Shown: positions 7,838 to 12,010 of the stretch, piece by piece
Layout: each line of letters starts with the position of its first letter
Numbering within the stretch: the first letter of the stretch is position 1
NCBI GenBank assembly: GCA_025356015.1
Contig: JANXYO010000139.1
Span: 1 to 35,132, forward strand
Source: Spirochaetaceae bacterium
GTDB lineage: Bacteria; Spirochaetota; Spirochaetia; Treponematales; Rectinemataceae
DNA: 35,132 bases
Direction: 5' to 3'
The notes under the pieces: model-generated
Databases searched by the model: none
What the model saw: only the letters and a program-made list of their open reading frames with translations
What the model was told of the DNA's origin: nothing
Made by a program: the position numbers and the translations under genes

Positions 7838-8578
7838 GTGTCAATCACTGTTGAGCACGAGAAGCGCAAACGCGAGATCCTGGAAAAGGCCCTCGAGGTC
7901 TTCGTCGACGAGGGCTACGAGGACACGACCTTCCAGAAGATAGCGGAGCGCTGCGGCATCACCCGGACCATCCTCTACCTCTATTTCAAGAACAAGCGCG
8001 AGATCTTCACCTTCAGCATCAAGCTCTTTGGCGAGAAGCTCGAGACCGAGATCAGGAAGATCGTTGCCGATCCCGCGCGGAACCACGTCGACAAGCTCTG
8101 TGCCACCCTTGCCATCATATTCGACGGCTGCGCCCGCAACCGGCAGCTCCTCGCGGTCATACTCGACTACCTTGAGCACCTCCGGACCTCGGGAGGCGAC
8201 CCCGGAGAGAGGGTTCGCCGAAGGACGATACGCATGCGACACATCATTGCTGGATTGATCATAGAAGGTCAGAAGTCCGGCGAATTCGCGAAGGTGCCGG
8301 TCAAGGCCGCCGCCGATGCGTTCTACGCCCTCATGGAGGCGGCGATCTTCAGGATCGCCGTCCTCGGCGGCGACGAGTCCTCGGGGCTCCATGCCGCCGC
8401 CAGGCTCATCGCCACCGGCCTCCTCGCCCCGGCACGGGTGGAGGCGAGGGCCGAGGCCATTGCCTCCGCGCCCGGGAAGACGGCGGTGAAAAGCCGCTCC
8501 ATCGAGGCAAGACCCAAGAGCGCCACGCGGAGCTCCTCGTCCGACGCATCGGGCAGCACAGCCAGGGCGCGACGATGA
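7838..8578 (+). CDS. TetR/AcrR-family transcriptional regulator
   Basis: 246 residues. The N-terminal TetR helix-turn-helix is clear: REILEKALEVF, then TTFQKIAERCGITRTILYLY followed by FKNKREIF (about residues 10-60). The C-terminal ligand-binding part is all helical, ligand unknown. The open frame extends upstream, but GTG 7838 is chosen because a strong GGAGG (7825-7829) sits 8 bases before it and the TetR domain starts there. The last ~45 residues are a Ser/Arg/Ala-rich basic tail (RSIEARPKSATRSSSS), unusual for TetR proteins. The gene ends in an ATGA overlap with lipA and is divergent from the amylase operon, so it may control lipoylation genes, the amylase operon, or itself. TetR regulators often sense small acyl or aromatic ligands; that is not evidence for this one. 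Confidence 0.88.
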   Translation: MSITVEHEKRKREILEKALEVFVDEGYEDTTFQKIAERCGITRTILYLYFKNKREIFTFSIKLFGEKLETEIRKIVADPARNHVDKLCATLAIIFDGCARNRQLLAVILDYLEHLRTSGGDPGERVRRRTIRMRHIIAGLIIEGQKSGEFAKVPVKAAADAFYALMEAAIFRIAVLGGDESSGLHAAARLIATGLLAPARVEARAEAIASAPGKTAVKSRSIEARPKSATRSSSSDASGSTARARR

Positions 8579-9465
8579 GCGGCGGCCCTCCCGTCGCCGC
8601 GGGCCGCAAGCCCGACTGGCTCAAGATCAAGGTCCCCTCGGGGGAGAACTGGCTCAAGATGACCGAACTCCTCGAGCGCCGGGGCCTCACCACGGTCTGC
8701 GACGCCGCCCGCTGCCCGAACAAGGCCGAGTGCTGGGGCGAGGCCACCGCGACCTTCATGGTCCTCGGGGCGACCTGCACCCGCAATTGCCGCTTCTGCG
8801 CCTGCACCCGCTCCCGCAAGGGCGACGCTGTCAACCCCAAGGAGCCCACCGAGCTCGCCGAGGCCGTCGCCGAGCTCGAGCTCAAGTACGTCGTCATCAC
8901 GAGCGTCGACCGCGACGACCTCCCCGACCGCGGCGCCGCCCATTTCGCGGCCTGCATCCGCGAGGTCAAGGCGCGCAATCCCGGCGTGGGCATCGAGGTC
9001 CTCATCCCCGACTACCGCGAGGGGGAGATCTCTCCCCTGCTCAAGGCAGGTCCCGACGTGATCGCCCACAACCTGGAAGTCGTCGAGCGTCTCCAGGGCA
9101 TACGGGATGTCCGCGCCTCCTGGGCGGCGAGCCTCCACACCCTCCGCCTCGCCGCCGAGCACAGGGTCGCGCGCGGGGGCGGCTCCCTCGTGAAGTCGAG
9201 CCTCATGCTCGGCCTGGGCGAGACAGAGAGCGAGGTGCATGCCGCGATGGATGCCCTGGTCGGCGTTGGCTGCAAGGCCCTGGTCCTCGGCCAGTACCTC
9301 CAGCCCACTGCCGAGCAGCTTCCCGTGGTGGAGTACCTGACTCCCGAGGCCTTCGAGGCCTACGCCGAGGTCGCCCGCTCCAAGGGCTTCGAGTCCGTCG
9401 TCTCGGCCCCCCTGGCCCGCACGAGCTACCACGCACGCGAGGCCTTCGTCTCCCACGTCAAATGA
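8575..9465 (+). CDS. lipA: Lipoyl synthase (radical SAM)
   Basis: Inserts two sulfur atoms into protein-bound octanoyl groups to make lipoyl cofactors. 296 residues, normal length. The radical-SAM cluster motif CTRNCRFC gives Cys 68, 72 and 75. The auxiliary cluster cysteines specific to LipA are at 42, 47 and 53 (CDAARCPNKAEC). The C-terminal RTSYHA holds the serine that coordinates the auxiliary cluster. EVLIPDY and SSLMLGLGET are family hallmarks. The ATG overlaps the regulator stop (ATGA), and the stop overlaps the next ATG the same way, so expression is coupled with the ligase genes. Neighbours indicate that the octanoyl or lipoyl substrate is attached by the LplA/LplB pair downstream; no LipB-type transferase is present in the window. 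Confidence 0.97.
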   Translation: MSGGPPVAAGRKPDWLKIKVPSGENWLKMTELLERRGLTTVCDAARCPNKAECWGEATATFMVLGATCTRNCRFCACTRSRKGDAVNPKEPTELAEAVAELELKYVVITSVDRDDLPDRGAAHFAACIREVKARNPGVGIEVLIPDYREGEISPLLKAGPDVIAHNLEVVERLQGIRDVRASWAASLHTLRLAAEHRVARGGGSLVKSSLMLGLGETESEVHAAMDALVGVGCKALVLGQYLQPTAEQLPVVEYLTPEAFEAYAEVARSKGFESVVSAPLARTSYHAREAFVSHVK

Positions 9466-9749
9466 CCCTGCGGAAGGACCACAAGGTGGCCGCGGGCAAG
9501 CTCATCAGGGTGAGGATCGAGGTCGAGCAGGCCAGGGCCCTCGAGGTGAGGGTGGGGGGGGACTTCTTCGCCCACCCCGAGGATGCTTTTGAGGAGGCCG
9601 AGGCCTCGCTCTCCGGCACGGGCCTCGCGGCCCTGCCCGCCGCGGCGGCTGCGGCCTTCTCGAGGCCCGGCCTCGTGATCTTCGGGGCCGGGGCTGCCGA
9701 CATAGCAGAGGCCCTGCGGAGGGCGATCGATGAGAATCAGGCTCCTTGA
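9462..9749 (+). CDS. Stand-alone lipoate-ligase accessory domain (LplB-like)
   Basis: 95 residues. The pattern KLIRVRIEV, then LEVRVGGDFFAHPEDAFEEAE, resembles the C-terminal accessory domain of lipoate-protein ligases, which in some archaea (Thermoplasma LplB) is a separate protein needed for lipoate adenylation. No membrane segment or metal motif. The ATG overlaps the lipA stop (ATGA), and the 3' end overlaps the ligase gene by 20 bases, as expected for two subunits made in equal amounts. The same frame is open upstream across lipA, but that part reads as arginine- and proline-rich antisense-like protein and is not used. The alternative is a small unknown protein, but the GGDFF-HPE signature and the neighbour argue for the accessory domain. 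Confidence 0.75.
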   Translation: MTLRKDHKVAAGKLIRVRIEVEQARALEVRVGGDFFAHPEDAFEEAEASLSGTGLAALPAAAAAAFSRPGLVIFGAGAADIAEALRRAIDENQAP

Positions 9750-10497
9750 TACGGGGCCCTCGGCCGGCGCCCTCAACATGGGCATAGACGAGGCTGTCCT
9801 GCTCTCGGTCTCCCGCGGCGAGTCCCCGCCATCATTGAGGTTCTACGGCTGGAAGCCCTCCTGCATCACCGTCGGCTACTTCCAGTCGATGCAGGAGGAG
9901 GTCGACCTCGGGGCCTGCAGGCACAGGGGCATCGATGCCGTGCGCAGGATCACCGGAGGCGGAGCCGTCTTCCACCAGGCCGAGATCACCTACTCGATAG
10001 TCCTTCCGGCGGGGCGCGGCCTCGCCTGCGACGACATCCTCGAGTCCTACCGCGGCATCTGCGGAGCCCTCGTGCTCGGTCTCGCCCGCCTGGGGATCGA
10101 GTCCGCCTTCTCCCCCATCAACGACATAACTTCAGGTGGCAGGAAGGTATCGGGCAACGCGCAGACGCGGAAGCAGGGCTGCCTCCTCCAGCACGGGACC
10201 GTCCTCCTCGACCTCGACCTCGACCTGATGTTCTCCCTGCTCAAGGTCCCTGCCGAGAAGCTGAAGGGGAGGCTCATCGAGGACGCCAAGGCGAGGGTCG
10301 TCTCCCTTCGGGACCTCCTCGGGAGACCCGTGGGCTTTGAGGAGGCGCGCTCTGCCCTCGCCTCGGGTTTTGCGGCGGTGCTTGCGGGGAGTGGGGATGA
10401 GCTTGAGGAGGGGGAGCTTTCGGGGAGCGAGCTCGCCGAGGGCCGGATCATCGCCTCCGAGCGCTTCTCGAGCCTCGCCTGGAACCTGCGCCGCTAA
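9730..10497 (+). CDS. lplA: Lipoate-protein ligase A, catalytic domain only
   Basis: Activates lipoate or octanoate with ATP and transfers it to the lysine of 2-oxoacid dehydrogenase E2 or GcvH domains. 255 residues. RRITGGGAVFH (72-82) is the adenylate-binding loop; NDITSGGRKVSGNAQ (131-145) holds the catalytic Lys139; LQHGTVLLD follows. The cysteine that LipM octanoyltransferases carry before the lysine motif is absent (FSPINDITS), so a ligase is favoured over LipM. The protein lacks the C-terminal accessory domain, which the preceding small gene supplies. GGAGG at 9718-9722, inside the upstream gene, lies 7 bases before the ATG. The last part (VGFEEARSALASGF) is also LipM/LplA-like. Confidence 0.9.
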   Translation: MRIRLLDTGPSAGALNMGIDEAVLLSVSRGESPPSLRFYGWKPSCITVGYFQSMQEEVDLGACRHRGIDAVRRITGGGAVFHQAEITYSIVLPAGRGLACDDILESYRGICGALVLGLARLGIESAFSPINDITSGGRKVSGNAQTRKQGCLLQHGTVLLDLDLDLMFSLLKVPAEKLKGRLIEDAKARVVSLRDLLGRPVGFEEARSALASGFAAVLAGSGDELEEGELSGSELAEGRIIASERFSSLAWNLRR

Positions 10498-11508: not shown

Positions 11509-11515
11509 GGTGGAC

Positions 11516-12010
11516 ATGGATACAAGCGCGATCCGCGTGATAGTAACAGGCGGGACCTTCGACAAGCACTACGACGAGATCAGGGGCGAACTCACCTTCA
11601 AGGACAGCCACCTGCCCGAGATACTACTGCTTACCAGGGTGACCCTGCGGGTCGAGGTGGAGCTAAACCAGCTGATCGACAGCCTCCAGATGCAGGATGG
11701 AAACCGCATCAGCGTCCTTGACTCCTGCAGGACCTCACCCGAGAAGAGGATCATCATCACCCACGGCACCGATACCATGTCGGAAACAGCCCGGCTCATC
11801 GGCTCGGCGGCCCTGGGGAAGACCGTGGTGCTCACCGGGGCGATGATCCCCTACAAGATCCAGGGCTCGGACGCCCTGTTCAATTTCGGGACAGCCTTCG
11901 CCGCAGTCCAGATCCTGCCTCCCGGGACCTACATCGTAATGAACGGCCGGGTCTTCGAATGGGACAAGGTCCGCAAGAACCGGGAACTAGGGATCTTCGA
12001 ATCGATATGA
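11516..12010 (+). CDS. Single-domain asparaginase-like protein
   Basis: 164 residues, about half a type I/II L-asparaginase (320-350). It holds the N-terminal Rossmann domain with both active-site loops: VTGGTFDK (TGGT loop with nucleophile Thr) near the start and ITHGTDTM (HGTDT triad). The smaller C-terminal domain, which completes the active site in classical enzymes, is absent; the frame ends cleanly with RELGIFESI, and no remnant follows. Stand-alone asparaginase N-domains are a recurring family, so this need not be a broken gene; its reaction is uncertain (asparaginase, glutaminase or another amidohydrolase). ATG 11516 is chosen because the domain begins there; GTG 11510 is also possible. 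The next gene begins 79 bases downstream and may be co-transcribed. Confidence 0.8.
   Translation: MDTSAIRVIVTGGTFDKHYDEIRGELTFKDSHLPEILLLTRVTLRVEVELNQLIDSLQMQDGNRISVLDSCRTSPEKRIIITHGTDTMSETARLIGSAALGKTVVLTGAMIPYKIQGSDALFNFGTAFAAVQILPPGTYIVMNGRVFEWDKVRKNRELGIFESI

Follow-up and report, generated by a model that had tools for sequence, protein, structure and literature searches.

The window, by which we mean the whole analysed stretch of 35,132 nucleotides from contig JANXYO010000139.1 of a Spirochaetaceae bacterium, carries a run of overlapping genes on its plus strand. A gene for a TetR-family regulator (7838..8578, GTG start) overlaps with its stop the start of lipA by 4 bases. The lipA gene (8575..9465) encodes a canonical lipoyl synthase of 296 aa, as seen from its TIGR00510 and PDB lipoyl synthase matches. 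It is followed by lplB (9462..9749) for a free accessory subunit of 95 aa, which was recognised by NF053749 and, by sequence and fold, by 3r07_C, and by lplA (9730..10497) for a catalytic subunit of 255 aa without the accessory domain (PF21948, 2ars, 3r07_A). In the window sequence lipA and lplB share the 4 bases ATGA, while lplB and lplA share 20 bases. An earlier note on this DNA had described overlaps of these lengths between lipA, a 95-residue reading frame and a ligase gene, and the coordinates bear this out. Within lplB a Shine-Dalgarno-like GGAGGG, read from the sequence, lies at 9718..9723 of the plus strand, 6 bases ahead of the lplA ATG.

The tetR gene is probably the first gene of the lipA operon. 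In about 20 relatives, those without lplBA among them, it was found immediately 5' of lipA, and its product is a candidate regulator of lipoyl assembly. Elsewhere in the window (11510-12010) we noted a short asparaginase-like reading frame of about 167 aa that corresponds to the N-terminal half only and is conserved beside the gene for SLT in a number of relatives (L068, L150, L165).

Properties of LipA, LplB and LplA

LipA scored 313.4 bits against the equivalog model TIGR00510 in an NCBIfam scan (cut-off 310.25) and contains both Cys motifs as well as the terminal RTSYHA motif. Lipoyl synthases in the PDB matched with E-values of 1e-71 (8tsk) and 1e-70 (4u0o). The LipS2 model gave 25.9 bits against a cut-off of 270, a comparison that covers the linked synthase of the operon only.

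LplB matched NCBIfam NF053749 with an E-value of 9e-18 and 64.2 bits, marginally below the 65-bit cut-off, and Thermoplasma LplB (3r07_C) with an E-value of 6e-6 in a sequence search of the PDB. The same chain was the best Foldseek match (E 3e-6, TM 0.76/0.81) of its AF2 model, which had a pLDDT of 95.9. LplB thus is a separate, homologous accessory subunit of the kind that characterises bipartite LplABs, and it is kept across dozens of genomes. Conservation, family match and fold rule out that the 95-aa protein is a chance reading frame of GC-rich DNA. A likeness of LplB to IscU, also seen with Foldseek, was discarded as a clue to Fe-S delivery to LipA, since LplB has no conserved cysteines.

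LplA belongs to PF21948 (2e-47) and matched 2ars with 5e-30 in the sequence search of the PDB. Its AF2 model (pLDDT 91.9) had 3r07_A as best fold match (E 3e-26). A domain scan found no PF10437 (Lip_prot_lig_C) domain in LplA, which according to the window sequence is a single-domain protein with LplB encoded in the same operon. The best PDB fold matches of LplB and LplA are chains C and A of one entry, 3r07, which identifies the two proteins as homologous to the paired subunits of the bipartite ligase of Thermoplasma.

The residues of LplA agree with this assignment. It contains RR72-73 and GGG76-78 of the RRxxGGG motif, the ND pair N131-D132 and the catalytic lysine K139, which together with the missing accessory domain are the marks of a bipartite LplAB catalytic subunit. 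In an alignment of 38 spirochaete ligases K139, N131, D132, R72-R73, G76-G78 and H82 were invariant in all 38 sequences, and none of the cysteines was. Cysteine-based transfer at C63 or C151 was considered, as both are (nearly) invariant in the first 12 sequences, and was rejected because each is substituted in some of the 38. LplA also lacks the LipM-type catalytic cysteine upstream of the lysine, whose position we take from the LipM literature and from the motif of the LipM-like protein of genome G009 (see below), and TIGR00214 (LipB) was not among its NCBIfam matches. The earlier statement that the ligase has the LplA lysine, here Lys139, and is devoid of the LipM cysteine was hence correct. 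The chemistry of LipB and LipM is cysteine-dependent. The invariant lysine, ND, RR, GGG and H82 in absence of an invariant cysteine therefore fit the acyl-AMP chemistry of a ligase and not that of LipB or LipM. A different arrangement was seen at a Micrarchaeota locus (L145, 3650-4747), where one reading frame encodes an N-terminal LplB joined to LplA.

Distribution of the operon and of further ligases

The source genome is 99.4% complete, and the PF21948 profile search used here was positive in 13/14 control genomes. In the source genome it returned two proteins only: the LplA of the lipA-lplB-lplA trio and a longer second ligase of 298 aa (C63:20334), which is TIGR00545-like but stays under the TIGR00545 cut-off. 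An assignment of the latter as LipL, LipM or LipB was not supported by an NCBIfam scan and motif comparison. No match to LipB (TIGR00214) and, with both PF21948 matches examined, no LipM was found in the source genome; likewise, the PF21948 search and the NCBIfam scan of the second ligase gave no sign of LipL. The check for LipB and LipM elsewhere in the genome, which the earlier note had asked for, thus came out in favour of its idea by the PF21948 and LipB searches and the motif comparison. The second, longer ligase lies outside the window and has to be added to the earlier picture. As likely targets the source genome encodes GcvH, within a gcv cluster, and the E1-E2 pair of a pyruvate dehydrogenase.

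LplB was present in 37/59 close relatives. At 29 further loci lipA had the same order and strand in every case, and lplA came next in 28, the contig ending at the other. According to the 66 spirochaete loci inspected, three families of a single order of spirochaetes have lipA-lplB-lplA as a fixed operon. Across the order LplB was detected in 59/294 genomes and 37/73 genera, belonging to families f1, f4 and f5, while LipB exceeded its cut-off in a single one of the 294 genomes, which had no LplB match. Most of the named carriers of the trio belong to the Spirochaetota, among them Breznakiella homolactica with a complete genome and a MAG of Gracilinema caldarium. Among the close relatives the trio occurred in 36/45 genomes with lipA vs 0/14 without it, counts that ignore shared ancestry.

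Seven trio genomes that lack a full dehydrogenase E2 (G008, G015, G017, G035, G043, G051, G057) had no PF21948 protein other than the trio ligase. All seven have lipA, and all except G015 have GcvH. A second ligase was found in 25/28 trio genomes with E2 vs 1/8 without (Fisher p 1e-4, shared ancestry ignored), frequently within a few kb of the E1-E2 genes. From this co-occurrence and proximity we infer a split of targets, with GcvH being served by the trio and E2 being associated with the second ligase. The split is imperfect, as G005, G020 and G046 have E2 and the trio ligase only.

Several loci deviated from these patterns. At L148 (G030:C84) a trio-type lplA that keeps K and ND follows lipA directly with no lplB between them, and LplB was not found in the G030 genome, which is 83% complete. 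Some lineages may do without LplB, or it may have been missed; the arrangement is a possible step to an LplB-free enzyme or an assembly loss. At L194 (G033:C14, 689-1645) lipA contains an in-frame TAA and the genome has no PF21948 ligase, which possibly reflects pathway decay. In family f3, which is without LplB, lipA adjoins a fused Lpl(AB)-type ligase at L166 (G050) and L190 (G034), a parallel coupling of LipA and ligase. L174 (G018:C175, 3785-4804) encodes a second PF21948 protein, in which the motif is altered to RRPNPGGAVFQ; no dehydrogenase is linked to its gene.

Loader replacement, fusions and the proposed pathway

The ancestral order of the block is GH(-), tetR, lipA, lplB, lplA, SLT(-). 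In two genomes the block is retained with lplBA missing. G009 keeps GH, tetR, lipA and SLT, and its only PF21948 protein is LipM-like (GGRAILH, PVCFEVPSSYE). G054 keeps the flanks and has LipB with 150.9 bits against TIGR00214 (cut-off 83.55). In the LipA tree LipA of G018, a trio genome, is the sister of the G009 protein (SH-aLRT 99). The G054 protein is nested among the trio LipAs of family f4. Given the conserved tetR-lipA synteny and this nesting, LipA stayed while its loader changed twice, to LipM in G009 and to LipB in G054. No other evidence speaks as strongly as these two swaps for LplAB fulfilling the role of LipB and LipM. In G045, a congener of G054, lplBA was also lost, and neither LipB nor LipM was seen.

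At 6/66 spirochaete loci (L015, L097, L112, L200-L202) lipA and lplB lie in a single frame. The scanned junction contains no ATG, GTG or TTG at L112 and L201; at L015, L097, L200 and L202 two separate proteins could still arise from an internal start. We give a rather small chance to the idea that LplA, LplB and LipA are physically joined in a single complex, with LplB belonging equally to LipA and LplA and the carrier being octanoylated and sulfurated without release. If such a complex exists, the LipA-LplB fusions would be its covalent form.

Taken together, lipA-lplB-lplA is in our judgement probably a self-contained operon for lipoyl assembly, whose bipartite ATP-dependent ligase loads octanoate for LipA in replacement of LipB or LipM. 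The earlier note had raised this idea for the ligase, and comparative genomics supports it by the genomes with the trio ligase as sole protein of its fold, by the replacement of lplBA by LipM or LipB and by the fusions; octanoate as the substrate is a deduction.

Two other readings have to be weighed. LplA-LplB may serve salvage only and attach scavenged lipoate, with LipA being fed by another, unrecognised octanoyl loader or being little used. Lipoate is indeed bound by ligases of this fold (2c8m), and Thermoplasma LplAB occurs in an organism without lipoyl synthase (PMC10332631). However, a pure salvage enzyme would hardly form a fixed operon and co-occur almost strictly with lipA, nor would one expect that lplBA is gone where LipM or LipB occurs though lipA remains, that LipA-LplB fusions exist, and that several lipA genomes have no other protein of the ligase fold. 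We therefore regard it as improbable.

Alternatively, LplA could be an ATP-independent, LipM-like octanoyltransferase acting on octanoyl-ACP, with LplB as docking or structural subunit. The stretch HxxE(I/L/V)TYS of LplA resembles the LipM-like protein of G009, no LplB was found in G030, and LipM was derived from LplAB ligases according to PMC10332631. Against this stand the missing LipM-type cysteine, the lack of any invariant cysteine in 38 sequences and the invariance of the ligase lysine and ND motif in the same set. Moreover, LplB is kept almost everywhere, whereas transferases have no small domain (PMC6067878). We consider a transferase similarly improbable.

For a ligase that loads octanoate, the pathway would proceed as follows. 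LplA together with LplB would activate free octanoate, and probably lipoate too, to the acyl-AMP and attach the acyl group to the GcvH lysine, perhaps also to E2 lipoyl domains. LipA would then insert two sulfurs into the octanoyl-lysine, so that LplAB would take the place of LipB and LipM. That octanoate is the substrate, GcvH the main target and LplB required is presumed here, octanoate use and LplB dependence from the Thermoplasma and Thermococcus precedents (PMC10332631, PMC6067878). The second ligase, which most relatives that encode a dehydrogenase E2 also have, would probably act on E2 and in salvage; that of the source genome might also load octanoate.

Comparison with known systems

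Bipartite LplABs are mainly archaeal with some bacterial cases and cluster with lipoyl synthases in archaea, and combinations of Lpl and LipA occur in 14% of bacterial genomes (PMC10332631). With these precedents the general route is already known. Spirochaetes are not mentioned in the main text of that paper, and our literature search on spirochaete lipoate synthesis gave nothing relevant. In the literature searched we found no description of a fixed spirochaete lipA-lplB-lplA operon as main loader of a bacterial order, of a replacement of lplBA by LipM or LipB, or of LipA-LplB fusions. Judged from the genomes, a bipartite ligase of archaeal type that is firmly tied to canonical LipA would be the main route of lipoyl assembly in three families of an order nearly without LipB (1/294 sampled genomes). 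The natural LipM and LipB replacements and the LipA-LplB fusions make it possible to test directly if ligases in bacteria take part in de novo synthesis. Genes of the lplB-lplA type are easily mistaken for those of plain salvage enzymes.

The ligase tree places the spirochaete sequences together in one group (SH-aLRT 83) that lies among those of archaea and has the LipA-linked ligases of Thermoplasmata and Diapherotrites as neighbours. A transfer between archaea and this spirochaete order is likely from the tree topology, with moderate basal support. The trio is also present on a contig labelled Altiarchaeota (L073), whose LipA branches as sister of the spirochaete LipAs as a whole (SH-aLRT 99) and whose ligase groups with archaea. 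This contig represents either the donor lineage or a mis-binned contig. Archaeal and Chloroflexota lipA-lplB-lplA loci (L075, L083, L090, L096, L098, L100, L123, L129, L144) have the gene order and strand of the spirochaete locus in different hosts, and the Chloroflexota ligases are placed elsewhere in the tree.

The LplA-LplB of Thermoplasma acidophilum (3r07, 2ars) shares with the spirochaete pair the separate catalytic and accessory subunits, and its two chains are the best matches by sequence and fold at about 30% identity. The earlier note had called a separate LplB best known from Thermoplasma; a separate LplB is, however, common in archaea and not Thermoplasma-specific. Thermoplasma has no lipoyl synthase (PMC10332631), whereas here the pair overlaps lipA. 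In Thermococcus, LplAB is the octanoate/lipoate ligase and LipS1/S2 the lipoyl synthase (PMC10332631). The likeness to Thermococcus kodakarensis lies in octanoate being loaded by a ligase before a radical-SAM lipoyl synthase acts (PMC10332631). There the synthase is LipS1/LipS2, and lplA and lplB are unclustered (PMC10332631), while the spirochaete system is bacterial, has canonical LipA and is contained in one operon. A loader physically fused to LipA is also known from NCBIfam NF053790 (bifunctional lipoate-protein ligase/lipoyl synthase). That family fuses the ligase itself, whereas the spirochaete fusions have only the small subunit LplB in frame with LipA.
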